Part shown: positions 28,453 through 44,093 of the stretch, in pieces
Numbering within the stretch: the first letter of the stretch is position 1
How the letters are laid out: each line of letters opens with the position of its first letter
Source: Chthonomonas sp.
GTDB taxonomy: Bacteria; Armatimonadota; Fimbriimonadia; Fimbriimonadales; Fimbriimonadaceae
Assembly (NCBI GenBank): GCA_016788115.1
Contig: JAEURR010000004.1
Location: forward strand, 1 to 44,093
DNA: 44,093 nucleotides
Direction: 5' to 3'
Position numbers and translations under genes: made by a program
The notes under the pieces: model-generated
The model's input: only the letters and a program-made list of their open reading frames with translations
The model's database searches: none
Told to the model about the DNA's origin: nothing

Positions 28453-28582
28453 TGTATAGATGACTCTGATAATGGTTTCTCGTCTGGCTTGACGGCGGTG
28501 AACGCTGGTTTCTTTTGAACTCGGGCGGGAGAAAACTGAAAAAACAGGCCGAAAATTACGCTACAAGCTCGAAGTGCGTGAC

Positions 28583-28619
28583 TATACTAAGACGAGGCTC
28601 AGGCAGGGAACCAGTTCCC
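28583..28619 (+). promoter_or_regulatory. Candidate -10 box and downstream inverted repeat
   Basis: TATACT (28583-28588) could be a -10 element; the hexamer 17 nt upstream (GCTACA) matches the -35 consensus only in its last half. Right after it, GGGAAC-CA-GTTCCC (28606-28619) is a perfect inverted repeat that would lie in the leader of the transcript and could be an operator. Confidence 0.3.
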
Positions 28620-28651
28620 CGGACGGAGCACAAGGACTGAAGGATAAAGCG

Positions 28652-29617
28652 GTGAGATACCAACTCTTAATGCTTGTTGCAGGTGTCGCAATGCTCTCTC
28701 TAGGTTTCACAAATGTTACGAAACCCCAGGGAGCATCAATGGCGGAAAAGCTCTTCGCCCGAGCGACTCCCGACGATTACATGAACGAGGAAGCGTGCGG
28801 CGAGTGCCATGAGCAGATCGTTAAGAACTATCCCGCTTCGGCTCATGCGGCGCTCGTCTCCGACACCAAGGCTCCTTTGGATCGCCAAGGCTGTCAGGGG
28901 TGCCACGGTCCGGGCCGCATCCACCAGGCGGAGGAGAATGCTGAGGTCATCTCCTACACAAAGCTCAGCGTTCAGGAATCCACCGCCGCCTGTATGCGCT
29001 GTCACGAGAAGACAATGTCGCCGAGCCACTGGAAGAGTTCCGTGCATGCACGTGCAGACGTCGGATGCGTCTCATGCCATCAGATTCACACGGACACCGA
29101 CAATGGCTTGGGCCACGGAGCCCTCAAGAAGGATCCGCGAGCAGCAGTGTTCATCGCGCGGACAGACCCTAAGGCGATGTTGAAGGCCGATGAAGCAACT
29201 CTGTGTGGGTCGTGCCACTCGGCGACCGTCGCTGAGTTTCGCGGAGCCTCCCATCATCCGATGCCCGAAGGCAAGATCGTGTGCAGCGATTGCCATACGC
29301 CTCACGCGTCCAAGAACTCGCGGATCAACACCGACACGGTCAAGGGCAAGTGCGTAACCTGTCACACCGAGAAGGGCGGTCCATTCATCTTCGAACACGA
29401 CCCAGTCGCTGGTTTCAGCGGCAATGGATGCCAGGAGTGTCACCGACCTCACGGCACCAACAATCCGAAACTCTTGAACTCGGTCACCCGCGGTCTCTGC
29501 GCCCAATGCCACACCGACAAGATGGCAGGGCACTACCCGGGTCAGACCTGCTGGTCAGCGGGATGCCATGTTGCAACACACGGCAGCAATGCGGATCGCC
29601 GCTTCTTGAAACCGTGA
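28652..29617 (+). CDS. Decaheme cytochrome c, MtrA/DmsE-like
   Basis: A 321-aa periplasmic multiheme cytochrome. After a signal peptide (LLMLVAGVAMLSLGF) come nine CxxCH sites (first at about residue 49: CGECH; then CQGCH, CMRCH, CVSCH, CGSCH, CSDCH, CVTCH, CQECH, CAQCH) and a last CX4CH site (CWSAGCH). Length, ten hemes and the HPMPEGKIVCSDCHTPH and ATHGSN tail motifs fit the MtrA/DmsE/PioA family, which threads an outer-membrane barrel and carries electrons across the outer membrane. The GTG at 28652 follows AAGGA and gives a proper signal peptide; the frame runs open to 28574. The barrel gene starts 13 nt downstream. Confidence 0.92.
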   Translation: MRYQLLMLVAGVAMLSLGFTNVTKPQGASMAEKLFARATPDDYMNEEACGECHEQIVKNYPASAHAALVSDTKAPLDRQGCQGCHGPGRIHQAEENAEVISYTKLSVQESTAACMRCHEKTMSPSHWKSSVHARADVGCVSCHQIHTDTDNGLGHGALKKDPRAAVFIARTDPKAMLKADEATLCGSCHSATVAEFRGASHHPMPEGKIVCSDCHTPHASKNSRINTDTVKGKCVTCHTEKGGPFIFEHDPVAGFSGNGCQECHRPHGTNNPKLLNSVTRGLCAQCHTDKMAGHYPGQTCWSAGCHVATHGSNADRRFLKP

Positions 29618-29630
29618 CGGAGTCAATCTA

Positions 29631-31262
29631 ATGAAACAACACAGATGGCTTTCGACAGGAATGACAGCGCTCTTCGTACTGGCTGGCGCATGCGCCTTCG
29701 GTCAGACCGCAGACCCCGCTGAGACGGATCCAACCGTCGCCCCTACCGAAGAATCGACTGAAGCGAGCACACCTGAAGCGCCGGTAAGACGCCGGGAGAT
29801 CACGATCGGAATCGACTCGATCAAGTTCAACGACGCGCTCCGCCGCTACGGACGCCCGCCACAGGGCCTGACGCTGCATCGACTTCGCTTCTCTTCCCCG
29901 TATGGCGAAGGGCCCGCTTACGGCAAGCTCCTGGTCACTGGGATGCCCGAGCGAGATAACGCGATCGAAGGGATGATCACCTTTAATCACGGCCACACCA
30001 CGATCAAGGCTCGCCGAACTGAGTCCGGAAGTTATGTCATGGACTGGCGTGCCAAGCCCATGAGCAATCGCAAGCAAGTCGAGTATACGGTGGATCAGGT
30101 CCTGACTCAATCACTGGGGATGTTCCTCAGCTACCGATCGTTCGAGCAGTCCACCGGATACCCGGCGCCGCGGGCGACGGATCACACCCGCAACGAAGTG
30201 GTCGCCGCTGGTGTGGTGGGGCAAGTCTTGGGTGGTCAATTTGACGCCACCCTTGCCAGCCGCCGGACACGAGACGTCAACGGAGCCTTGCCCACAACGA
30301 TGCAGCGCCGAGCGGACGCAACCTACTCGCGGGACTTCGGCAGCCATCTGAACTTGGAAGGGACCGTCGGCTTCTCGCGCATCGAACAGGCTGGACTCCC
30401 GGCAAGCAACGTGAAGAACGTCGGCTTCGCAGGGGTACTGGACCTCGGTCCATCGACCGGACTCCAGTTCAACCTTGGGCGCACCGACTACGATTTCAAC
30501 ACCAACCAAACCCCTTCGATCCGCAAGCGAACGATTTCGGGGCTCCGGCTGGTGCACATTTCCAACAAATGGTCGTTCCAGTTCGGATACCGACACCGCG
30601 AGACGGAACGAATCCGAGGGGACCGGACGTTTGTCGACGTGCCGAAGCTGAACGACTATGACGCTCGGCTGAGCGGACGCATTGGGACTGCCCGTGTCAC
30701 CCTCAAGGGGTCCTGGGAAGATCTGAGAACGTCCGCGATCATGACGACCTTAGACAAGCGGCAAATGCTGTGGGACGATCGAGCGACATTCCAAGCCAAG
30801 GTGGACGGTGGTAACGAGACTTTTCTCGCTTACGGTGTGTACACCTACCGCTTCCAGCAGAACAAGCAGCGTGGCGTCGATATCAAGTGGAACAACCTGG
30901 TGCTCGGCGGCAGCTACGTGTTCAACCCTTGGGTGCAGGCTTATGCAGAAGTGTCGAACGACAGCTTCAGCGCGCGCAGCGAAGGAAGCACCGCGCTGGA
31001 CTTCTTCTTCCCCAACAGCCGCACCGCGGCACTGGGGCTCAGCTGGACGAAGTCACCCGGGCTGTCAGGCTCGGCAAGTTTGAACCTTTATGAATCGGGC
31101 GACATCCGCGGGAGCCAGCTCACGCTGACGCTGCGCAAGCAGCTAAGCGCAGACCATGACTTTGAGTTCATGGTTGCTCCTTGGCGGCAAACCGACCGGC
31201 TTTACGGAATCTCGGGATACCGAACGACGATGCTATCGGCGCGGTACACGGTGAAGTTTTGA
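29631..31262 (+). CDS. Outer-membrane beta-barrel protein, MtrB/PioB-position
   Basis: A 543-aa protein with signal peptide (MTALFVLAGACAFGQ), a Thr/Glu/Pro-rich acidic linker (about residues 25-52) and a long run of alternating-polarity strands separated by charged loops, ending in ARYTVKF with the terminal Phe recognised by the BAM machinery. The number of strands looks sufficient for a large barrel (20 or more). In gene order it takes the place of MtrB/PioB, the sheath through which the decaheme cytochrome passes. Sequence-level membership in that family was not confirmed by eye; the N-terminal CxxC of some MtrB proteins is absent. Confidence 0.8.
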   Translation: MKQHRWLSTGMTALFVLAGACAFGQTADPAETDPTVAPTEESTEASTPEAPVRRREITIGIDSIKFNDALRRYGRPPQGLTLHRLRFSSPYGEGPAYGKLLVTGMPERDNAIEGMITFNHGHTTIKARRTESGSYVMDWRAKPMSNRKQVEYTVDQVLTQSLGMFLSYRSFEQSTGYPAPRATDHTRNEVVAAGVVGQVLGGQFDATLASRRTRDVNGALPTTMQRRADATYSRDFGSHLNLEGTVGFSRIEQAGLPASNVKNVGFAGVLDLGPSTGLQFNLGRTDYDFNTNQTPSIRKRTISGLRLVHISNKWSFQFGYRHRETERIRGDRTFVDVPKLNDYDARLSGRIGTARVTLKGSWEDLRTSAIMTTLDKRQMLWDDRATFQAKVDGGNETFLAYGVYTYRFQQNKQRGVDIKWNNLVLGGSYVFNPWVQAYAEVSNDSFSARSEGSTALDFFFPNSRTAALGLSWTKSPGLSGSASLNLYESGDIRGSQLTLTLRKQLSADHDFEFMVAPWRQTDRLYGISGYRTTMLSARYTVKF

Positions 31263-31309
31263 TGACTGAAATGCAATCGGAGAGAAACAAAAACGAGCGG
31301 AGGACGAAT

Positions 31310-32746
31310 ATGAAGAACCGATGGTTCATTACACTCATCGCGTCCATCCCTGTTGTGGCCGCGGTTCTGGCAATCCAGAGCTGTGGTGGCGTTGGCGGAC
31401 CGACCACAAATAATGGTGGCCAGGGATCGGTAAGCGCTTCGTTCTTGGCATTGCTCAGCGATGAGCAGCGCACAGCAACGTCGATTACCCCTGAAGAATG
31501 CGCTGACTGCCACGGTGGCCGTAATCCGGATGAACCGATCTATGCACACTGGAAGGAAACAGCCCACTTCGCAAAGGGTGTGACTTGCGAGAGCTGCCAC
31601 GGCCCGGGAAGCGCCCACAAGGCAAACCCGACCAAGTCAAACATGCTGACCTACCCGAAGATCACTTCGCCGGTCGTATGCGGGCAGTGCCACGGTCCAA
31701 TCGTGGATCAATACAACGTGTCGCAGCACAGCAAGCTTGTCTCTGACCCGGTGGAAGAGGCCATCGTGAACCCGGCGCAATACGGTCGCAACTCGCGCTG
31801 TATCGCCTGTCACAGCGGCCTGGTCCGCGCGGAGATTCTGGAGAAAGGCGAGGACCTGGGTGCCCTTTCGGATGCTGAAATCCGAGAGATCTCGGAGAAC
31901 ACGTTGCAGCATGTGCCACATTCGGCCACCTGCACCACTTGCCACAGCCCGCACCGACAAACTGGCAACCTCACGGACGCTGGTAAGGAAGTCCAGCTGA
32001 ACAAGAAGACGTTCAACCTCGACATCACTGCGATCGATCGGGGAACGACGGCTGCCTCCTTCACGAACTACGATCACGTCTGCGGCCAGTGCCACAACGG
32101 ACGTGGTACGGACCCAACCGACGCGAAGCTGACTTCCGGCACGGCTCGACCGAGCATGCACGACAGCAATCAGATGCAAATGCTGATGGGCTTCGGCGGC
32201 GTCGAAGGTTCGGGACCGGTGGAACGAAACACGGCCCACGCTCAGGCGCCCGGCCAGTGCTCCAAGTGCCACATGCCGGATTCGAGGCACACCTTTACGG
32301 TGAGCTTCGACAACGGCTGCGCGCCGTGTCACACGGCAGCAGATGCGGCGGCACGCGCCACCTCGATCAAGTCGGAAACGCTGAGCTTGCTCGTTGCCCT
32401 CCGGACCCGTATGGAGACATGGGCACAAGGCAAATTCGGCAATGCTGACTACTGGGACTACACCAGTATCATCACCGCCGACGGCGGCACCCCGCCGACT
32501 CAGTCGCAAGTGCCGATCGAAGTCAAGCGGGCACGCCACAACTACTACTTCGTCATCCGCTCCGGCGACTACGGCGTCCACAACGCCCCGTACGCTAAGC
32601 ATCTCCTCTCGGTCGCGAATACCAACCTGACCTCGATAGGAGTGGCAGGAGCGCCAAGCTCGCGGCTCGGAAACGATGACAAACTGCAGATCATCGAACG
32701 CGATAAGCAGCGGGCGATGAAGGCTGAGCTCGAGTTTCCCGAGTAA
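31310..32746 (+). CDS. Octaheme c-type cytochrome lipoprotein
   Basis: A 478-aa protein with a lipoprotein-type signal (basic start MKNRW, hydrophobic core, Cys after AIQS at about residue 25) and a Gly/Asn-rich tether. Eight CxxCH motifs follow: CADCH, CESCH, CGQCH, CIACH, CTTCH, CGQCH, CSKCH, CAPCH. The C-terminal helix region (about 380-460) includes RSGDYGVHNAPYAKHLL, recalling the D/G-x-HN-P helix of pentaheme nitrite reductase (NrfA) and octaheme relatives, but there is no CxxCK active-site heme. Start ATG 31310 has GGAGG; an earlier ATG at 31262 overlaps the barrel stop. It is a candidate outer-surface electron exit or terminal reductase. Confidence 0.88.
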   Translation: MKNRWFITLIASIPVVAAVLAIQSCGGVGGPTTNNGGQGSVSASFLALLSDEQRTATSITPEECADCHGGRNPDEPIYAHWKETAHFAKGVTCESCHGPGSAHKANPTKSNMLTYPKITSPVVCGQCHGPIVDQYNVSQHSKLVSDPVEEAIVNPAQYGRNSRCIACHSGLVRAEILEKGEDLGALSDAEIREISENTLQHVPHSATCTTCHSPHRQTGNLTDAGKEVQLNKKTFNLDITAIDRGTTAASFTNYDHVCGQCHNGRGTDPTDAKLTSGTARPSMHDSNQMQMLMGFGGVEGSGPVERNTAHAQAPGQCSKCHMPDSRHTFTVSFDNGCAPCHTAADAAARATSIKSETLSLLVALRTRMETWAQGKFGNADYWDYTSIITADGGTPPTQSQVPIEVKRARHNYYFVIRSGDYGVHNAPYAKHLLSVANTNLTSIGVAGAPSSRLGNDDKLQIIERDKQRAMKAELEFPE

Positions 32747-32798: not shown

Positions 32799-35210
32799 AT
32801 GAACGATATCAATGCCACAAGCCTCATGGACCCACCAAGTTGGTCTCTGACTCTCGGAGTCATAGGCCGATTCTTGATTTTGGGGGCAGCCGGGTTCTTC
32901 GCCCTGGCTGGCATATCGTGGTTCGTACAACCTCGGTGGCCGAACGGCGCACGACTGGGCAAGGGTGCATTTTTTGCTGGCTGCGCTGCGCTGGCCGGTT
33001 CGTTCGTCAGCCTCGGCGTGCTCTTCGCCAATCACCGATTCGAGTATGAGTACGTCTACGGTCACTCAGATCTTGCGAACGCCTTGGCATACCGCATTGC
33101 CGGGATCTGGTCCGGCCAAGAGGGGAGTTTCTTGCTTTGGGCGACGTGCTCGGCAATCTTCGGCCTCTTCACCGTCGGTCGCACGGAGCACTACCGCCGC
33201 TGGTACACGATCGTCTTCTCCTTCTTCCTGGGAGGCATCGCCAGCATTCTCGCGTTCGAGTCTCCCTTTAACCTCAACATGGTTGGGTCGAAGCCGTTCG
33301 TCCCCGCCGATGGACTTGGACTCGCACCTTCCCTACAGAATTACTGGGTCATCATCCACCCGCCCACCATCTTCCTCGGGTTTGGATCGCTAACCTGCCT
33401 CTTCGCTCTGGCGGTCGCCGCACTCTGCACGCGAGACTACGAGCGCTGGATACCGATTGTGCGCCCCTGGGCAATCGTCGCCACCACCCTCGTGGGTGTC
33501 GGCCTGTGCATGGGCGGTTTCTGGGCGTACGAGACGCTCGGCTGGGGCGGCTTCTGGATGTGGGATCCTGTCGAGAACGTGAGCTTTGTCCCATGGTGCT
33601 TCGCGGCAGCGCTCTTGCATGGCGTACTCGTGCAGGCCACCAAGAAGAAGTGGCAGATGACAAACCTTCTGCTCGGTGCACTGCCCTTCCTCGTGTTCGT
33701 TTACGGCACCTTCCTCACCCGATCGGGATTGCTGAGCGACGCGAGCGTGCATAGCTTTGCCGAGATGGATCGCTCCGCGCTAAAACTGCTTACCATCGTC
33801 ATGGGGGTCAGCACGCTCGGATTCCTCGGGCTATGGGGGGTGCGAACTTGGCAGCAACGCAAGGTCCAAGCCGAAGCAAGTGAAGCCCCTACCGGTCTCC
33901 AGCGCGAAGGGTTCTACATGGTCGGGATCACGCTCCTGCTGGTTATGGGCATCGCCACCGCCATTGGCATGAGCGTTCCGCTGGTTCAGGCTCTGCGCGG
34001 CGAGAAACCCCGAATTGTAGAGGAGGCGGTGTACCACCAGGTGCTCGTTTGGATCTTCGTACCGATCATGCTGTTGCTGGCGATCACGCCATTTGTCGCA
34101 TGGCGCGGCATGCGGGCGCGCGATTTGGCCGCCCGAATGTACACGATCTTGTGCATCACCGTGGGAGTCACGGGACTGCTGCTCTTCCTGACCGTCGTCA
34201 CACCGTTCGCGCGTCGCATAGAGATCGCGCCGGTCGTCACAATGCTGGGGCGCTACCAAGTGCCCGGCCTCGCGTGGTTGACCGTCTTAGTCGGAATCTG
34301 CCTCTTTGCGCTCATCGGCAATGTGTGGTGCGCGTCTGGGCTGATGAAGCGAAGCAAACTCGGTATTGCCCCATTCATGACCCACGTGGGTCTTGGGCTC
34401 TTGATGATGGGTCTGATCGTCTCCCGTGGTTTCGAACGCAAAGCCCAAACGATGGTGATGCAAGACTATCCCGGGCGACTCATGAACTACGAAGTTCGAT
34501 ACGCCGGGATGACGTCTAATGAGATGGACCGCAATAACAAACTCAAACTGGCGATTTACGATCCGCATAAGCAAGGTGACCCGTTGTTCATCGCCTACCC
34601 AGGGCTGTACCGGGTGCAGATGGCTGATGGCCAAGAGAACACCATGGTGTGGCCGCACATTGAGCGCAACTGGCTCATGGATACGTACGTTTCCCTCGGT
34701 CAACCGCAGAACAACGCCAGTCAAGACCTGACCTTGAAGCAAGGCGAAACAGTCCGTTTCGGCGAAATGATGCTGACCTACAAGAAAATGACCCGCCAGG
34801 GAGAGCCGGGCCAGTTAGGAACGAAGTTCGGTGCCGAAGTGACCGTCGAGAGCATGGGCCAGGTCGCGACGGTAAACCCCGAGATGGAGTTGGGGGGCGA
34901 CCAGGGCATGGTCGACCACCCGGTGAAGATCGCCGACAACATGGAGCTCGTTATGGCTGGCATGGACGCAGCCGACAAATCCGTCCGGCTACGCATCCAG
35001 CTCACCACCCCGCTCTATCCGGTCGAGATCTACCACAAGCCGTTGACCAGCCTCGTCTGGCTTGGGACTGGGGTCATGACCCTTGGTGGCTTCCTTTCCG
35101 CTTTTTACAGACGCGCCCGCAGGCCCGTAACCGCCCCGGAGTCGCCTCAGGTCGCTCCGCTTGGAGCAAAGCCGAAGCGGGCACCCGCAATGCTAGGAGA
35201 TAAACCATGA
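32799..35210 (+). CDS. ccmF: Cytochrome c heme lyase subunit CcmF
   Basis: An 803-aa polytopic membrane protein that attaches heme to apocytochromes on the periplasmic side. Features are ALAYRIAGIWSGQEGSFLLWA, the heme ligand region YWVIIHPPTIFLGFG and the WWD domain WGGFWMWDPVEN (about 249-260). The C-terminal soluble part (about 555-755) is long and ends with a further membrane segment, making the protein longer than a typical CcmF of about 650 aa. Start ATG 32799 (TTG 32793 also in frame). Its stop overlaps the monoheme cytochrome start by 4 nt. Confidence 0.95.
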   Translation: MNDINATSLMDPPSWSLTLGVIGRFLILGAAGFFALAGISWFVQPRWPNGARLGKGAFFAGCAALAGSFVSLGVLFANHRFEYEYVYGHSDLANALAYRIAGIWSGQEGSFLLWATCSAIFGLFTVGRTEHYRRWYTIVFSFFLGGIASILAFESPFNLNMVGSKPFVPADGLGLAPSLQNYWVIIHPPTIFLGFGSLTCLFALAVAALCTRDYERWIPIVRPWAIVATTLVGVGLCMGGFWAYETLGWGGFWMWDPVENVSFVPWCFAAALLHGVLVQATKKKWQMTNLLLGALPFLVFVYGTFLTRSGLLSDASVHSFAEMDRSALKLLTIVMGVSTLGFLGLWGVRTWQQRKVQAEASEAPTGLQREGFYMVGITLLLVMGIATAIGMSVPLVQALRGEKPRIVEEAVYHQVLVWIFVPIMLLLAITPFVAWRGMRARDLAARMYTILCITVGVTGLLLFLTVVTPFARRIEIAPVVTMLGRYQVPGLAWLTVLVGICLFALIGNVWCASGLMKRSKLGIAPFMTHVGLGLLMMGLIVSRGFERKAQTMVMQDYPGRLMNYEVRYAGMTSNEMDRNNKLKLAIYDPHKQGDPLFIAYPGLYRVQMADGQENTMVWPHIERNWLMDTYVSLGQPQNNASQDLTLKQGETVRFGEMMLTYKKMTRQGEPGQLGTKFGAEVTVESMGQVATVNPEMELGGDQGMVDHPVKIADNMELVMAGMDAADKSVRLRIQLTTPLYPVEIYHKPLTSLVWLGTGVMTLGGFLSAFYRRARRPVTAPESPQVAPLGAKPKRAPAMLGDKP

Positions 35211-35530
35211 AACGACTACTCTACTCTTGTGCCGTTGTAGGCCTGTTTGCATCTGCAATGGCCATGACCACCTTCAACAAGGTATTCCACGACAAGTACG
35301 ACATCAAGCCCACTTCGAACATTGGAAAGGCCGACTGCGCCGCATGCCATGTAAAGAAGAAAGGCGGAGCACTGAACCCCTACGGCAAGGACATCGCCGC
35401 TGCGATGAAGGCCGCGGGAAGCAAGAAGCTGACGCCGGCCATCTTGTCGAAGGTTGAAGGCTTGGATTCGGACAAGGACGGCAAGTCCAACATCGCTGAG
35501 ATTAAGGCTGACAGCCTCCCAGGAGGCTAG
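35207..35530 (+). CDS. Small monoheme cytochrome with EF-hand-like loop
   Basis: A 107-aa exported protein: signal peptide (LLYSCAVVGLFASAMA), a single CAACH heme site at about residue 45-49 and, near the C-terminus, the loop DSDKDGKSNIAE, which has Asp at positions 1, 3 and 5 and Glu at 12 like a calcium-binding EF-hand or thrombospondin-type loop. Sequence around the heme (KKKGGALNPYGKDI) is a pattern of short periplasmic cytochromes. It is coupled to ccmF by ATGA overlap and could be a periplasmic electron shuttle for the conduit. No sixth-ligand methionine can be assigned with certainty. Confidence 0.8.
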   Translation: MKRLLYSCAVVGLFASAMAMTTFNKVFHDKYDIKPTSNIGKADCAACHVKKKGGALNPYGKDIAAAMKAAGSKKLTPAILSKVEGLDSDKDGKSNIAEIKADSLPGG

Positions 35531-35587: not shown

Positions 35588-35959
35588 ATGAAACTCGGAG
35601 TACTCGTCTCGATCGTCGTTGGCCTCGCCGCAGCCGGTGGTCTCACCACCGTGTTCGTGAGCAATTCATCGCCATATGTGACGATTCAGGACGCTTCTGG
35701 GCACCCTCAGCGCGTACACGTCGTGGGCAAAATCGTCCCCGACACACTGAAGCGCAATACTTTGGCAGGCGAAGTCCGGTTCAATCTCAAAGACGAGACC
35801 GGCGCTATGGCCGTGAAGTACGTGGGTCCGCCTCAGCCCAACCTCGAATCCGCGACCCAAGTGGTCGTGGTTGGCAAGCTAGACGAGGGTGTGTTCCACG
35901 CCGACCAGATGCTGGTGAAGTGTCCCTCGAAGTACGAAAGCGAAGCGAAGACCAGCTAA
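35588..35959 (+). CDS. ccmE: Heme chaperone CcmE, CxxxY type
   Basis: A 123-aa periplasmic heme chaperone anchored by an N-terminal helix (LGVLVSIVVGLAAAGGL). The OB-fold is visible through VHVVGKIVPDT, VRFNLKDETGAMAVKYVG and VFHADQMLVK. Where E. coli CcmE has a heme-binding His in HxxxY, this protein has C112-P-S-K-Y116, i.e. the CxxxY motif of the System I variant known from archaea and some sulfate reducers. It takes heme from CcmC/CcmAB and delivers it to CcmF. AAGGA lies upstream of the ATG. A bidirectional terminator follows. Confidence 0.92.
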   Translation: MKLGVLVSIVVGLAAAGGLTTVFVSNSSPYVTIQDASGHPQRVHVVGKIVPDTLKRNTLAGEVRFNLKDETGAMAVKYVGPPQPNLESATQVVVVGKLDEGVFHADQMLVKCPSKYESEAKTS

Positions 35960-36018: not shown

Positions 36019-36142
36019 ACTTTTTCTCGTCGAGCTCGCGCTCCATGGCCTTAACTCGGGTGTCTATCCGATTCAGGTACAGATACAGGACGATCCACAC
36101 GACGAGCGGTGGTACGGTTGCCAGAACTTTCCAAGTTTCCAT
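36017..36142 (-). CDS. ccmD: CcmD-like small membrane protein
   Basis: A 41-aa protein with one hydrophobic helix (VLATVPPLVVWIVLYLYL) followed by a charged helix (NRIDTRVKAMERELDEKK), the standard form of CcmD, which helps release holo-CcmE from the CcmABC complex. It begins at ATG 36142 inside the end of ccmC, overlapping it by 92 nt in another frame, and has no clear ribosome binding site, so it probably depends on translation of ccmC. Confidence 0.75.
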   Translation of the reverse strand: METWKVLATVPPLVVWIVLYLYLNRIDTRVKAMERELDEKK

Positions 36143-36788
36143 CACGATCACGCAATCTTTGTTCGAGGAGCGAGACTTGGACGTGCAAACGATACAGCCA
36201 CATGCACGTGCCAAGCAAAACGATGAAGACGCCCAAGACCACCGTCCAGTAGTCCTTGGAGAATCCGCCCGATTGGACGGTAGTGCTCGGGTGAAGCGAA
36301 TTCTTCACCACTTGTGGCAGTCGCGGAAACACAAATACCAGGAACAGCACCGGAAGCAGCGTGAGCGACGAGTACACCGCGGCTGCTCGAGCACGCGCAA
36401 CCTCGTCATCGAAGGCCATTCGGACCGCGAAGTACGCCCCGAGCAACATCAACACGATAAGGAACGAGGTCTGTCGCGGGTCCCAGTGCCACCACGCGCC
36501 CCACTGGACGCGAGAGAATAGGATCCCGGTGATCATTGTGGCCGCTGCCATGCCGATCGAGACCTCGGTTGCGGCTAGGCTACGGTACTCCCAGATCCAC
36601 TCGCGGGTGCGCAAGTACGAGAATGAACAGTACGAGGCGAATAGAATGAACCCGACGGTTGCGAATGCGCACGGCAGGTGGAAGAAGATCATCCGTGCCA
36701 ATTCCGGGTCTGGGAAATTCTTCGCGGGCGGAACCTGGTAAGCGAAGAAGGTCAGGACGGCCATTGCCGCAAATCCAATCCATCTCAT
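36051..36788 (-). CDS. ccmC: Heme handling protein CcmC
   Basis: A 245-aa membrane protein with six predicted helices. It loads heme onto CcmE in the periplasm. The WWD-type motif WGAWWHWDPRQTS is at 96-108, the first heme-ligand histidine in FFHLPCAFA (H37), and a second in SLHPSTT near 185. The C-terminal tail after VSLLEQRLRDRD is hydrophilic and unusually long because it reads through the start of ccmD. Start overlaps the ccmB stop (ATGA). Confidence 0.94.
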   Translation of the reverse strand: MRWIGFAAMAVLTFFAYQVPPAKNFPDPELARMIFFHLPCAFATVGFILFASYCSFSYLRTREWIWEYRSLAATEVSIGMAAATMITGILFSRVQWGAWWHWDPRQTSFLIVLMLLGAYFAVRMAFDDEVARARAAAVYSSLTLLPVLFLVFVFPRLPQVVKNSLHPSTTVQSGGFSKDYWTVVLGVFIVLLGTCMWLYRLHVQVSLLEQRLRDRDGNLESSGNRTTARRVDRPVSVPESDRHPS

Positions 36789-37462
36789 TGCTCACTCCAA
36801 ACAGCTGCGAACTGGTACGGGGCCAGTGCTAACACGACGACAGTATACTCCCAGACCCCTGCGCAACTAAGCCAACCTGAACTCAAAGCAACCCCATCAA
36901 TCGCATTCCGCGCGGCCGAAACCCCGAGCGCAACGAGCGGCACCAAAAGTGGCATGGCGACCACGCCTGCCAACGTGCCCCGGTTGTTTCCGCGCGATAT
37001 CAACGCCGAGACCAGGGTGACCATTCCCGCGAGTGCGGCCGAGCCCCCGACCAATGTGGCGATCAACAACCCATAGTGAGCAACGCTGACTCCGGTGAGC
37101 ACCAGGAAAAGCCCGGCCACCACCCCTGCCGTCGCCGTCATTTGTAGCGCGGCGAATAGCATCTTTCCCCAGTAGACTGCATGAGGGCGAGCCCACATGC
37201 GTAGCAGATCGCCTGTCCCCTGCTCTTCTTCGGCCACAAAGACCCTTGTGAGCGTGCCGACCCCCGCAAACAGCAGCGCCGCCCACAGCATTCCGGCTGC
37301 CGCTTCGGCCGTCAACTCACGTCCATAGAAGGCAAATGCGAGTGTGAAGACCGTCACCCCGCTCAGCATGAACGCAGTGTAGGTCGCGCTCTTGTTGCGC
37401 AGCTCCGATTGGAGCTCCTTGCGCAGGACTGCACCGATCTCAGATTTCCAGGCTGAGCTCAT
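36785..37462 (-). CDS. ccmB: Heme exporter membrane subunit CcmB
   Basis: A 225-aa protein with six predicted membrane segments, the permease partner of CcmA. The N-terminal amphipathic part (VLRKELQSELRNKSATYTAFML) and LFAGVGTLTRVFVAEEEQGTGDLL are characteristic of CcmB. Start chosen at ATG 37462 rather than the in-frame TTG at 37471; this overlaps the end of ccmA by 23 nt. The complex releases holo-CcmE using ATP. Confidence 0.93.
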   Translation of the reverse strand: MSSAWKSEIGAVLRKELQSELRNKSATYTAFMLSGVTVFTLAFAFYGRELTAEAAAGMLWAALLFAGVGTLTRVFVAEEEQGTGDLLRMWARPHAVYWGKMLFAALQMTATAGVVAGLFLVLTGVSVAHYGLLIATLVGGSAALAGMVTLVSALISRGNNRGTLAGVVAMPLLVPLVALGVSAARNAIDGVALSSGWLSCAGVWEYTVVVLALAPYQFAAVWSEQ

Positions 37463-38018
37463 GAGTCGCAAACCTCCTTTCTAGCGGGTCGTTCGTAGCG
37501 ATGACGAAGGCGGCTCGGTTGCGACGCGCATCGATCATCCGGGCGATCACATCGCGGCCGCGCTCATCCAGGCCAGCGCTCGGCTCATCGAGCAGTATCG
37601 CGGGTGGCTCCGCCTGGAACGCCAAGGCAAACTTGAGGCGTGCGCGCATGCCCGTCGAAAGGTGGCGACCCGCGACGCCAGCCGCATAACGAAGCTCGAC
37701 TTCTTCAAGGAGTTCATCCACGCGAGGGTCACAGCCGCGTAACTTTGCTGCGAGTTCGAGGTGTTCGGCGACCGTCAGAACCGGATACACCGATTGGTCG
37801 AGGGCCGCATAGCCCAAGGACGTGCGGCGGTCTTCGCCGCGGTCACAGGTGCCTTCCGTGGCTGGGATCACACCAGCCATCACCTTAAGCAGAGTGCTCT
37901 TGCCGGAGCCGTTCGCACCCAGCACAACGAGAGTGTCACCGGGCTCCAACTCCAGATCCACATGCCTGAAGAGCCAACGTCGGCCGTACCTCTTGCCCAG
38001 ACGCTCGCAGCGGATCAC
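37440..38018 (-). CDS. ccmA: Heme exporter ATPase CcmA
   Basis: A 192-aa ABC ATPase. Walker A is GANGSGKST (34-42), the signature loop LSTGMRAR (from 120) and Walker B ILLDEP (141-146), followed by AGLDERG. It is short, as CcmA proteins are. It begins with a GTG at 38018 and leads the ccmABCD operon, which converges on ccmF/ccmE. The 134-bp gap upstream, shared with the divergent CbcL-like gene, should hold promoters for both, though none could be assigned clearly. Confidence 0.92.
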   Translation of the reverse strand: MIRCERLGKRYGRRWLFRHVDLELEPGDTLVVLGANGSGKSTLLKVMAGVIPATEGTCDRGEDRRTSLGYAALDQSVYPVLTVAEHLELAAKLRGCDPRVDELLEEVELRYAAGVAGRHLSTGMRARLKFALAFQAEPPAILLDEPSAGLDERGRDVIARMIDARRNRAAFVIATNDPLERRFATHELSLEI

Positions 38019-38152: not shown

Positions 38153-39973
38153 ATGAGTATGCGACGATCGCTGAGACGCGTAGGGATCTACGCCATCTTG
38201 CTTGCGGTTGCAAGCCTACCGCTATTTTTCGGATTTGCCAGAGCGCAGTCCATCACCACCCCACCCGAAGCGCACGCGCAGGCGTCCAAACCCGACGCAG
38301 AAACCCAGACCGAAATCGACGATTGTATGGGTTGCCATGCCTCTGACGCCGAGTCCGGACCTGCGGTCGATGTCAACCATCTTATGGCGTCGCCCCACGC
38401 TTCGCTCGGATGCAAATCGTGCCACTCCAGCATCACGGAGGCACCGCACACCGAGGAGATGCTCGCTGAAAAACCCGCATGCGCGGATTGTCACCCAGAC
38501 GAATCGCAGGGCTACGCGACGAGCGTTCACGCCCGACCCGACAAGGTCGCCGGGGACCACCCGACGTGCAAGACCTGTCACGGTCACGGCGATCCGCATT
38601 CGGTGCGACTGTATGCCACTTGGAGCCGCGCCGACAAGGTCAACGTCTGCAGCACCTGTCACCGCGATATAGAGCGGATGGCGCGGTATGGCCCGAATGT
38701 CGAAGCCGTCAGCTCGTATGAGCAGAGCTTCCATGGGCGCGCCCTGCTGAAGTACGGCAGCCAGAAGACAGCCATTTGTATCGACTGTCACGGGAGCCAT
38801 GCAGTCCTCTCGCATACGGACCCGAAATCAAGCACCCACACCAGCGCGGTCGCGACAACCTGCGGCAAATGCCACGAGGGTGCGGGTCCCAATTTCTCGG
38901 TCTCTGGTTCAAACCACATGAACCTCACGATCCACCGTGAGCCGGTTCTCAACGCCGTCCTGGTCTTCTTCAAGGTGCTCGTCACGGCGATGGCGACGTT
39001 CCTCATGATCGGTGTACTGCTCGATCTCAAGCGTTCACTGTTTGGGAAGACACCTCCCCGCGCCGGGCGAGTCGTCAGCACGGTCGTCTCACTTGGATTT
39101 CTGAGCATTGTTGGGGCCATCGCGCAGGCTACATTTGGGATACGAGGCGGCACAATCACGACCCTGGTGGGGGCCTCGTTGCTGCTTGCATCGGTCCTGA
39201 TATTCCGGTGGCAGAATCGGAAAGCCGATACAGCCCCCAAAGAGGTGTTCGACCGATTCCACACTTCCATTCGCGTGCAACACATGCTGCTCGTGATCAG
39301 CTTCACGCTGCTCATCATCACCGGGATGCCGGTGCGTAATCCGCAAACCGAGATGCTGCGGCGGATCTACTTGAGCATTGGGGGACTTGAAGTTGGCCGG
39401 GTGATCCACCGAGCCGCAGGGGTGATCCTAATCGGCGTCTTCGTCTTCCACGTGCTGGAACTCCTGTGGAAGTGGAAAGGTAGCGGGTACAAGTGGAGCG
39501 CATGGACAATGCTTCCCACGCGGCAAGATGTGGCGGACTTCATCGCCGAATCCAAGTCGTACATGGGCGGACAAGGGGAGGTCCCGACTTACGGGCGCTT
39601 CCACTTCCGCGAGAAGCTGGACTACTTCGCTGAGTACTGGGGCATTCCGCTGATGGCGATCACGGGGCTCATCCTGTGGTTCCCGGTGTACTTCGGAAAC
39701 GTGCTGCCGCCGATCGCGATCCCTATCGCCTTCATCGCGCATTCGTACGAAGCGGTCCTGGCATTCATCGCCATCCTGACCTGGCACCTTTACAATAGCT
39801 ACTTTAACCCCAACCACTTCGCGCTGAGTCAGCCGTGGAACATCGGCCTGCTCTCGCACGACGACATGCACCACAAGCACCCGTTGGAGATCCGGTCGGT
39901 ACTGCAGAATGGAGCAGAGACGCCAGATACGGAGAGCCCCAGCGACACAGCTCCTGAGCCTCCCGAGGAGTGA
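38153..39973 (+). CDS. Seven-heme cytochrome c fused to b-type membrane domain (CbcL-like)
   Basis: A 606-aa fusion. A signal or anchor helix (VGIYAILLAVASLPLFFGFA) leads to a periplasmic domain with seven CxxCH motifs (CMGCH, CKSCH, CADCH, CKTCH, CSTCH, CIDCH, CGKCH). After about residue 265 follows a membrane domain of the cytochrome b561/FdnI type, with candidate heme-b histidines in VQHMLLVISF, VIHRAAGVIL, VFHVLELLW and LTWHLYNSYF. This design is that of Geobacter CbcL and related quinol-cytochrome c oxidoreductases, which pass electrons from menaquinol to periplasmic cytochromes. The start could be ATG 38153 or 38159; no strong RBS is visible. Confidence 0.88.
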   Translation: MSMRRSLRRVGIYAILLAVASLPLFFGFARAQSITTPPEAHAQASKPDAETQTEIDDCMGCHASDAESGPAVDVNHLMASPHASLGCKSCHSSITEAPHTEEMLAEKPACADCHPDESQGYATSVHARPDKVAGDHPTCKTCHGHGDPHSVRLYATWSRADKVNVCSTCHRDIERMARYGPNVEAVSSYEQSFHGRALLKYGSQKTAICIDCHGSHAVLSHTDPKSSTHTSAVATTCGKCHEGAGPNFSVSGSNHMNLTIHREPVLNAVLVFFKVLVTAMATFLMIGVLLDLKRSLFGKTPPRAGRVVSTVVSLGFLSIVGAIAQATFGIRGGTITTLVGASLLLASVLIFRWQNRKADTAPKEVFDRFHTSIRVQHMLLVISFTLLIITGMPVRNPQTEMLRRIYLSIGGLEVGRVIHRAAGVILIGVFVFHVLELLWKWKGSGYKWSAWTMLPTRQDVADFIAESKSYMGGQGEVPTYGRFHFREKLDYFAEYWGIPLMAITGLILWFPVYFGNVLPPIAIPIAFIAHSYEAVLAFIAILTWHLYNSYFNPNHFALSQPWNIGLLSHDDMHHKHPLEIRSVLQNGAETPDTESPSDTAPEPPEE

Positions 39974-40047: not shown

Positions 40048-41568
40048 CTACTTGGCCGGCTCTTCTTCCTCTTCTTCGTGGCCGTGGCACTCCTTGCACG
40101 GCGTGTTCTTCCATTCGTCGCCGATATCCACCGGGTGTTCGAACTCCATGCCCGCGAAATTCGTCTTGGTCTGTCCTGGCTTGCCCTGCGAGACGAAGGT
40201 GTGGCACGTGTTGCAGTCCTTGCTGATGACCTTCCCTTTGTCACTGGTCAACTTACCGTTGTGGCAACGGAAGCACCCGTTTCCACGCAGGTGATCCAGG
40301 TTGTCGTTATGCGACCGCCAGTCCGTGCGCATCTCCGGGAAGTAGTTCTGCTTGTAGATCGCTTGGATCGAGACAATGGCCGCCTCGAGCTTCGATGCGC
40401 CGGTGGCCATGAAGTCGGCGTACGTTTCCTTGTAGTACGCCCGGAGTTCCGTCGCGATCTTGGTTAGAGCTTCGGGCTTAGTCGCATACTTGGCGTCGAG
40501 GACCTCGACTGCCTTGGCCTTGATCTCAGGAACGGTCTTGTCTATCAACCCCGTCGAGAGGGCAGTATCAACTGACTGGCTGGCCGGGTGGAAGATGTGG
40601 GTCGGCCGGTTGTGGCAATCAATGCAGTCCACGACGCGGCGCTGACCACTCTTCACCTGTGCTTCGGTCAATTTGGCGGTCGCGTCGCGATAGATTGTCA
40701 CTGCGCCGCTCTTGTCCTTCATCTCCACGTAGGGAATGATTTGCCGCTCGCGATCCGTGGCGATGTACGAGATGGTGCTGTCCAAGTACATGTGGGCATG
40801 AATTCCCTGCGCCTGCGCCCCTTCCCCGCCGCCGATCTTCACGAGCATGCTCGTAGTGTGCTCGGTGTTCTCCTCATCGGAAAGGAAGTAGTCGTGGGTC
40901 CGCACCTTTTGCGTGAAGAAGTGCTTGGGCCAGTGGCACTGCTCGCAAGTCTCCTTCGCGGGGCGAAGGTTGGCGATGGGGGTTTTGATCGGCCGCTCGT
41001 ACTTGTTGAAGATCGTGGAGTAGACCTGGTATGAGCCGGAGAGCTTGGATTTCACGTACCAGTCCACACCTTCCCCGATGTGGCAGCCCGCGCACGTGAC
41101 ACGAGCGTGAGGCGAGCCTTGGTACGCCGTGTACTCAGGCTCCATGACGCTGTGGCACGTGGTTCCGCAGAACTGGACCGACTCGGTGTACTCGTAACCC
41201 TTGTAACTCCCGAACCCTGAGAGCGCGGTGAGCACCAATCCGCCCAACGCCACCGAAGTCGCGATGAATCGGTGCCGCGGCTGGTTCAGGTCGATGACGG
41301 GCAACTCAGCGGGGAGTTCCCCGCGCTTCTGTCTCCGGCGTGCGCGCCAAAGGCCGATGGCGGCAATGAACAGCCCAAAGAACATCATGCCCGGCAGGGC
41401 GATGTAGGTCACCAGGCCGCTGTACGAGTTGGCAAAGCCGCCGAATAGGTCGAAGCAGATGAGAATCACCGCGAGGATGAACATCACCGTGGCGAAGGTC
41501 ATCCCGAACAGGGTGGTCGCATTATAGAAAATTGCAGGTAGTCGACGTTTCATCGTGTTGTAGTCCAC
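40048..41568 (-). CDS. Seven-heme NapC/NirT-type inner-membrane cytochrome (ImcH-like)
   Basis: A 506-aa membrane-anchored cytochrome. Three hydrophobic segments (about 20-40, 52-72, 105-122) precede a periplasmic domain that opens with a CX3CH site in the NapC-type context FCGTTCHSVMEPEY, followed by CAGCH, CEQCH, CIDCH, CFRCH, CNTCH and CKECH, seven hemes in all. The tail is acidic (HEEEEEEP). Architecture and heme number match Geobacter ImcH, a quinol oxidase needed for high-potential extracellular acceptors. The frame starts with GTG at 41568; ATG 41553 is an equally plausible start. Alone on its strand after a strong terminator. Confidence 0.88.
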   Translation of the reverse strand: MDYNTMKRRLPAIFYNATTLFGMTFATVMFILAVILICFDLFGGFANSYSGLVTYIALPGMMFFGLFIAAIGLWRARRRQKRGELPAELPVIDLNQPRHRFIATSVALGGLVLTALSGFGSYKGYEYTESVQFCGTTCHSVMEPEYTAYQGSPHARVTCAGCHIGEGVDWYVKSKLSGSYQVYSTIFNKYERPIKTPIANLRPAKETCEQCHWPKHFFTQKVRTHDYFLSDEENTEHTTSMLVKIGGGEGAQAQGIHAHMYLDSTISYIATDRERQIIPYVEMKDKSGAVTIYRDATAKLTEAQVKSGQRRVVDCIDCHNRPTHIFHPASQSVDTALSTGLIDKTVPEIKAKAVEVLDAKYATKPEALTKIATELRAYYKETYADFMATGASKLEAAIVSIQAIYKQNYFPEMRTDWRSHNDNLDHLRGNGCFRCHNGKLTSDKGKVISKDCNTCHTFVSQGKPGQTKTNFAGMEFEHPVDIGDEWKNTPCKECHGHEEEEEEPAK

Positions 41569-42792: not shown

Positions 42793-43022
42793 TCAAGATC
42801 TGTTGCATACGTTAGTTCCTTTACAACAAGCTCCTCTATCACAGCGAACAACTCCTTGCCATTGCGATCCGTCAAGTACCAGTAGTCAGACGTCCATTTT
42901 GGCGTATTGCAGTACTCAACGTAACGGACGAGCTCAAGGACATTCGGGCACTCATAACGTACCTCTGAGAGATGCGGCTTCACGTACACCAGCACGGGCC
43001 ATTCTATTTGTGCGTCGATCAT
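42789..43022 (-). CDS. Candidate immunity protein 1
   Basis: A 77-aa protein beginning at ATG 43022, which overlaps the RHS stop by 4 nt (ATGA), with a further in-frame ATG two codons upstream. It is acidic to neutral, soluble and rich in aromatic residues (KWTSDYWYLTDRNGKELF). Position and coupling make it the likely antidote for the RHS toxin tip. It is unrelated in sequence to immunity candidate 2. No family recognised. Confidence 0.65.
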   Translation of the reverse strand: MIDAQIEWPVLVYVKPHLSEVRYECPNVLELVRYVEYCNTPKWTSDYWYLTDRNGKELFAVIEELVVKELTYATDLE

Positions 43023-44093
43023 TCCCATGGAAGATGTCTGTCAGCTCCTCCCCCGGGAGGACGTGGTCCTGGTGGGAAGTCCCTATGCCAGTGTGGCCAT
43101 TTGTACCAGGGTTGCCCTCTCCAAGGGTGAACCTCAACGCGAAACCAGGGGTCACCATTCCGAGTTACCTTCAGCCCGCCACCCCCAGTGTTCTTGTACG
43201 GACCTTGAAACTCTCCATTCACCCCTCCGCCTTTCATTGCGCCCGCAGCTATCAGACACACCATAGCCACTTCGGTAAGATGCTTTGCTTCCGTATAGCC
43301 CGGTTCATCGTCATGCGACCCGTCATCACCAATTCCGAACTTTGAACCGTTCCGTAGTGCATGACCGGCGGTTTCCAGGCCGTCGTTTACCGCGTTTAGA
43401 GCAGCTTCATAGACCTCGTCGCTTGCGTCCCCGTCTCCAGTTAACAACCAACGATCGAAGTTCCAGAGTCCTTGGGGGTCTACTCCTTGAACAGAATCAT
43501 TAGAACAATAGCCGTAGTGATTGAAACCTCCCCTGAATCCAATCGGATCCCTGGTAACCCACCTACCGTTCGCGGGGTCGTAGTATCGGTGTTGGCAGTA
43601 GTACAACCCTGTTTCAGTATCGAGCTTGTACCCCCAACGAGCATTGTAACCGAACCTCAGCAGATCTGCAGCAGAGCTTGCACCATTAGAGTACACAAAG
43701 TTTCGCTGGCCCCAAGCGTTATACGCCGAATGGATCAGCGGTTCATCGGCGTACCGTGCCCCCGAGAACAGACAATGAACCGCGTTGCCTTGCCAGTCGA
43801 ACTGGTAATCCCCAACGACCGGGATCGTGCCCGAAAGCTTGCTCCAGCGAGTCACCAAGCCATCCGGCGCAAAGATATTCATCCCCACCATCGTCCCATC
43901 AGCCTTGGTCTCCAGAACCGCGTTGCCTTGATCGTAGTAACAAAACGTCTTGGCACCCGTCGCGGTCTTGCGCGTCCAGGCGCGCAATCCATCGGCCCGG
44001 TAACCCGCACCCCAGACCTGAGCCCCTGCTGGGAACGCCGTAAGACGGTTCTCCTCATCGTAACTGGCGCTACCGCTCGAATAGGTCGTCGGG
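43019..44093 (-). CDS. RHS-repeat polymorphic toxin, C-terminal part (runs off window)
   Basis: The frame is open to the window edge, so the gene's start and most repeats lie beyond 44093. The visible part has a YD-type repeat (YDEENRLTAF), LRAWTRK and then the RHS core signature: FGYNARWGYKLDTETGLYYCQ-type text, HRYYDPANGRWVTRDPIG, GGFNHYGYCSNDSVQGVDPQGL (ending at 43463-43480). After DPQGL comes a variable tip of about 147 residues, with a helical section (ALNAVNDGLETAGHALRNG) and a His/Pro/Trp-rich end (YKWPHWHRD, RHLPWE). In this family the repeats form a shell around the toxic C-terminal tip. The tip's activity is not recognised. Confidence 0.88.
   Translation of the reverse strand, partial: PTTYSSGSASYDEENRLTAFPAGAQVWGAGYRADGLRAWTRKTATGAKTFCYYDQGNAVLETKADGTMVGMNIFAPDGLVTRWSKLSGTIPVVGDYQFDWQGNAVHCLFSGARYADEPLIHSAYNAWGQRNFVYSNGASSAADLLRFGYNARWGYKLDTETGLYYCQHRYYDPANGRWVTRDPIGFRGGFNHYGYCSNDSVQGVDPQGLWNFDRWLLTGDGDASDEVYEAALNAVNDGLETAGHALRNGSKFGIGDDGSHDDEPGYTEAKHLTEVAMVCLIAAGAMKGGGVNGEFQGPYKNTGGGGLKVTRNGDPWFRVEVHPWRGQPWYKWPHWHRDFPPGPRPPGGGADRHLPWE

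Follow-up and report, generated by a model that had tools for sequence, protein, structure and literature searches.

The product of ccmE1 is a genuine CcmE protein of the System I* type, in which cysteine takes the place of the heme-binding histidine of E. coli CcmE. Its gene lies in a 44,093-nucleotide stretch of DNA from Chthonomonas sp. ("the window"), close to a gene for a heme lyase, CcmF1, and in one operon-like run with genes that resemble those of a porin-cytochrome conduit. We consider it likely that CcmE1 and CcmF1 serve mainly or only the cytochromes of this conduit, that a second pair encoded elsewhere in the genome (CcmE2-CcmF2) has the housekeeping role, and that both pairs share one set of CcmABCD. 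Cys-type CcmE proteins were already known; the locus is new in that a duplicated CcmF-CcmE pair is tied to a bacterial porin-cytochrome-like operon.

System I* is the variant of the Ccm system that has a CxxxY CcmE (Allen 2006; Goddard 2010; reviewed by Stevens 2011, PMC3601427). It is known from archaea, Desulfovibrio, Chloroflexi and Firmicutes. For the Desulfovibrio system, covalent attachment of heme to the cysteine of CcmE has been shown. About one third of the bacteria with a Cys-type CcmE had retained CcmH according to that review (PMC3601427). In Methanosarcina acetivorans, where the cysteine of CcmE is C120, CcmABCEF is sufficient (PMC9084895). In ANME archaea, the gene for a second heme lyase, CcmF2, is always found beside that for the giant multiheme protein MHC-B (PMC9012536). 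A literature search found no published CcmE type for Armatimonadota. The features of the window are listed in Table 1.

Table 1. Cytochrome c maturation genes of the window and the multiheme cytochrome genes around them.
Feature	Position	Strand	Remarks
Nonaheme periplasmic cytochrome, DmsE/MtrA (decaheme) family	28574..29617	+	TIGR03508; 9 CXXCH
Putative outer-membrane beta-barrel (porin partner)	29631..31262	+	conserved location, flanked by nonaheme and octaheme genes
Octaheme lipoprotein	31304..32746	+	8 CXXCH; lipobox-like IQSCGG; 46-bp gap to ccmF1
ccmF1, heme lyase paralog, 805 aa	32793..35210	+	Pfam, alignment, AlphaFold, 6zmq match
Small monoheme c-type cytochrome	35207..35530	+	CAACH; DxDxDG stretch; 4-base overlap of its start with the ccmF1 stop
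ccmE1, Cys-type heme chaperone, 123 aa	35588..35959	+	N-terminal TM anchor, OB-fold, CPSKY
CPSKY motif of ccmE1	35921..35935	+	Cys112 aligns with E. coli His130
ccmD, 41 aa	36017..36142	-	one TM helix; overlaps 3' end of ccmC
ccmC	36051..36788	-	Cytochrom_C_asm / TIGR01191; sole CcmC found in genome
ccmB	36785..37471	-	PF03379, 79.1 bits
ccmA	37440..38018	-	TIGR01189 is top NCBIfam match, 101 bits
7-heme (seven-CXXCH) cytochrome fused to cytochrome b561	38168..39973	+	recurrent conduit-cluster neighbour in relatives
NapC/NirT-type multiheme cytochrome	40048..41568	-	PF03264; recurrent neighbour

The sequence-only reading had reported Cys112, encoded by TGT, within the CPSKY motif of ccmE1. This was confirmed by reading the open reading frame, which has the codon at 35921-35923, and by aligning E. 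coli CcmE. In the alignment with 8ce8_E and 1sr3_A, heme-binding His130 of the E. coli protein corresponds to Cys112, and Tyr134 corresponds to Tyr116. The protein matches the Pfam CcmE model (PF03100) with 62.6 bits (cut-off 24.6). Its AlphaFold model (pLDDT 90.5) consists of an N-terminal helix and an OB-fold, and the best Foldseek matches of this model are CcmE structures; the OB domain of CcmE from D. vulgaris (2kct) was also matched. Cys112 is neither a sequencing slip nor a chance replacement because the cysteine is invariant in all 105 distinct CcmE sequences read from the phylum (see below).

The window encodes CcmABCD and a CcmF, as expected of System I*. The genes ccmC, ccmB and ccmA converge on ccmF1 and ccmE1, which are on the opposite strand. 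The ccmD product scores slightly below the cut-off of TIGR04391 (21.2 bits; cut-off 24), and an equivalent ORF is kept after ccmC in four relatives. This gene had been overlooked earlier, and so had the other ccmE-ccmF pair, which lies outside the window. The annotation of the locus bears out the earlier remark that neither ccmG nor ccmH adjoins ccmA-F. CcmF1 retains the WWD motif and, in the alignment, the four invariant histidines (189, 276, 320 and 531). Its AlphaFold model (pLDDT 87.5) has an enlarged periplasmic beta domain (about residues 549-750) and is matched by Thermus CcmF (6zmq) with a Z score of 34.7 over 569 residues. CcmF1 combines features expected of a CcmF heme lyase (WWD, four conserved histidines, CcmF fold).

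The host genome (2.4 Mb, 97% complete) was searched for further maturation genes. Profile searches detected two CcmE genes; CcmE2 is encoded on another contig (C3), upstream of its own CcmF (CcmF2). Both copies have CPSKY at the position of His130, and no His-type CcmE was found in the genome. The CcmH model (PF03918) gave no match in the 97% complete genome while positive controls were detected, although a very divergent CcmH might evade this model (a CcmH discussed below, from G004, scores only 25.5 bits). The discovery of a His-type ccmE together with a ccmH elsewhere in the genome had been named as what would refute the initial interpretation; both were looked for, and neither turned up. 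Judged by its gene content, the genome is of the CxxxY System I* type without detectable CcmH. The combination of an HxxxY CcmE with CcmH, as in the classical E. coli-type System I, is not found in it. Searches found just a single CcmC, a pair of CcmF and one CcsA, the last being a System II protein. Outside the window, the genome also codes for a full-length DsbD and for TlpA-like thioredoxins.

The plus-strand genes nonaheme cytochrome, putative barrel, octaheme lipoprotein, ccmF1, monoheme cytochrome and ccmE1 follow each other in this order with small gaps. The nonaheme protein belongs to the MtrA/DmsE family by its TIGR03508 score (194.4 bits; cut-off 192.2). The putative barrel has no match among Pfam and NCBIfam models, including those for MtrB/PioB; a homolog in another locus (L244) weakly matches Porin_4. 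Comparison of the octaheme protein with PDB sequences gave weak multiheme matches only. CXXCK was not found in the cytochromes of the window, and the motifs of the conduit are all ordinary CXXCH. We regard the first three genes (28574-32746) as encoding a putative porin-cytochrome-like conduit. Homologs of the monoheme cytochrome gene come after ccmF1 in most relatives. This protein was considered as a substitute for CcmH and was set aside, since it has a CXXCH motif and copies also occur away from ccmF.

The relationship between ccmF1 and the conduit was analyzed in 76 genomes of the family, all of which have a CcmF. CcmF1 and CcmE1 of the window are, by their sequences, paralogs of the separate CcmE2-CcmF2 pair. 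The CcmF1 type occurs in 27 of these genomes and forms one clade (93/85) nested among CcmF2 sequences, which corresponds to one change on the tree; the CcmE1 sequences also cluster together in their tree. The octaheme gene is present in about 29 of the 76 genomes. It occurs in 25 of the 27 genomes with CcmF1, and in both exceptions CcmF1 is at the start of a contig. In all 24 intact loci, the octaheme gene is located 24-247 bp upstream of CcmF1 on the same strand. Co-occurrence of the two genes (25/2/5/44, n = 76 genomes) gives a Fisher p of 5e-13 when shared descent is ignored. Only 10 of the 24 intact loci have a CcmE in addition to CcmF1 (in one of them, the CcmE is of the other lineage), and CcmF1 is therefore the core partner of the conduit. 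Four genomes (G091, G114, G115 and G116) have conduit genes and lack CcmF1, so that CcmF1 is helpful but not strictly required. From this linkage we infer a heme lyase, often with a Cys-type CcmE of its own, that would be dedicated to a porin-cytochrome conduit in the manner of NrfE or ANME CcmF2.

The same data may also be read as a plain System I* with redundant and interchangeable CcmE-CcmF pairs, where the linkage only secures capacity when the conduit is expressed. The catalytic features are identical in both CcmF types, the four genomes just mentioned have the conduit without CcmF1, and the conduit has ordinary CXXCH motifs rather than the CXXCK known from NrfA/NrfE. Proximity of CcmF1 to the octaheme gene could likewise reflect inherited co-expression instead of specificity. 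However, a separate CcmF1 clade has been kept beside the octaheme gene despite divergence to about 50% identity, which suggests more than a dosage effect. We take redundancy as a serious possibility but lean away from it.

System II might be thought to perform general maturation in this organism, with the Ccm genes being accessory, because contig C5 encodes a CcsA (127 bits) together with a ResB-like protein. Their genes, however, directly follow nrfH-nrfA (L039 996-5045), and this NrfA has a CWTCK motif. The order nrfHA followed by CcsA/ResB is the arrangement of the NrfA-dedicated NrfI (PMC12285233), and the pair looks like a dedicated system of this type, not a general one. Of the 76 genomes of the family, all have a CcmF but only about 10 have ResB, which is absent from both relatives of the same genus. 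We thus consider general maturation by System II to be very improbable. Across Armatimonadota, ResB and CcmE are mostly found in separate genomes, and System I* must therefore suffice alone in most of them. ResB matches in two genomes (G038 and G041) were not counted as System II because they overlap contig regions of CcmF genes, and weak matches in three others (G042, G043 and G174) were left out as doubtful. Regarding contig C5, its start (L039 1-417) is nearly identical to the Rhs/YD-repeat sequence at 43019-43987 (minus strand) of the window, at the end of the contig containing the window, which suggests that the assembly broke at this repeat.

CcmE was detected in 169 of 237 Armatimonadota genomes, and CcmH in three of the 237 (profile search). 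All 105 distinct CcmE sequences that were read have the cysteine; none is of the His type. The motif is C-P-S/T-K/R-Y in 103 of them and CPSKE in the remaining two (L096 3665-4285 and L097 3896-4309), where the tyrosine of CxxxY is gone and the cysteine kept. The closest named loci are from Armatimonadetes and Fimbriimonadaceae MAGs, with CcmE identities of up to 65%, which places the host in Armatimonadota, order Fimbriimonadales. In two deep-branching genomes (G003 and G004), CcmH is encoded within the cluster of ccmE and ccmF, where the CcmE is of the Cys type. The genes ccmE(Cys), ccmF and ccmH follow one another there (L040 164-3487 and L041 4571-8102), and in the broader tree the CcmFs of these loci make up a separate clade together with two relatives that lack CcmH. 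The CcmH of G116 was discounted. It is encoded on a 3-kb contig (C7, L042 1-3044) that carries a proteobacterial-type ccmF end, ccmG, ccmH and ccmI, and is probably a contamination.

CPSKY-type CcmE loci are also found in Acidobacteriota, Zixibacteria, Calditrichota and Bacillota, in a set that was gathered by the CPSKY pattern, is biased to LVKCPSKY and is uninformative on the frequency of the His type. Among 50 named genomes with a CPSKY CcmE, from several phyla, 46 gave no CcmH match. The earlier proposal that the Cys type goes along with loss of CcmH thus holds strongly but not absolutely: CcmH loss is very frequent in the phylum but not obligatory, since G003 and G004 combine a Cys-type CcmE with an adjacent CcmH. 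This agrees with the proportion of CcmH-retaining bacteria given in the review (PMC3601427).

The Cys variant is a known one, characterizes the whole lineage and does not depend on the multiheme cluster. It is not a local adaptation, because it is fixed throughout the phylum, in genomes with or without multiheme clusters. Although ccmE1 sits in a multiheme cluster, we give next to no credence to the idea, suggested by the sequence-only reading, that the cysteine is a local adjustment to very multiheme cytochromes, given that it is also present in CcmE2, in genomes devoid of the cluster and in the CPSKY-pattern loci of the other four phyla. A connection to multiheme cytochromes does exist at another level, as CcmF1 and CcmE1 are the paralogous copy tied to the multiheme conduit.

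The locus shares features with several known systems. It resembles described System I* in its CPSKY CcmE, in having CcmABCDEF and in having neither CcmH nor CcmG alongside. It differs in belonging to a new phylum, in that the cysteine is fixed and in having two CcmE-CcmF pairs per CcmABCD. As in M. acetivorans (PMC9084895), a CxxxY CcmE and two CcmF occur without CcmH. Unlike that archaeon, the bacterial host has a CcmD, and its two CcmF are both of full length, each with a CcmE partner. With ANME CcmF2 (PMC9012536) it shares a CcmF paralog next to an extracellular multiheme cytochrome, on a mostly CcmH-less background. The differences are the bacterial host, the porin-cytochrome-like cluster, the ordinary CXXCH motifs and the CcmE that often accompanies CcmF1. 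As with NrfE, the CcmF paralog for NrfA, a paralogous heme lyase is encoded together with the proteins that it presumably serves, but here the substrate cluster has no CXXCK, NrfF and NrfG are lacking, and NrfA is encoded on another contig beside CcsA/ResB. As in MtrCAB, an MtrA/DmsE-family cytochrome, a barrel-like protein and a multiheme lipoprotein are encoded in one operon; in contrast to it, the putative barrel matches no MtrB/PioB model, the cytochrome has nine hemes instead of ten, and a heme lyase is linked. By analogy, the closest parallel to CcmF1 is ANME CcmF2, with NrfE being more remote.

We propose that the single CcmABCD set would load heme onto Cys112 of CcmE1, with a covalent bond like that in Desulfovibrio, and presumably also onto the equivalent cysteine of CcmE2. 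CcmF would then pass the heme to apocytochromes without CcmH, by analogy with the Desulfovibrio and Methanosarcina systems (PMC3601427, PMC9084895), and reductant probably comes via the full-length DsbD and the TlpA-like thioredoxins. CcmE1-CcmF1 would mature the surface cytochromes of the conduit, as their linkage suggests, and CcmE2-CcmF2 would act as the housekeeping pair. A more far-reaching claim, that CcmF1-CcmE1 is a conduit-specific holocytochrome c synthase set within a porin-cytochrome operon, sharing CcmABCD with the housekeeping pair and an independently evolved counterpart of ANME CcmF2, is in our view evenly balanced.

For the phylum, these results turn CcmH-less maturation with a Cys-type CcmE from a scattered oddity into the rule. 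This is relevant to the origin of CcmH and of the unusual His-heme bond, which could be either ancestral features or later additions. The conduit-linked CcmF/CcmE paralogs provide a test of whether extracellular multiheme cytochromes need a heme lyase of their own, a question that also arises for ANME archaea, in a setting where close relatives naturally have or lack CcmF1 and where the heme motifs are ordinary CXXCH.
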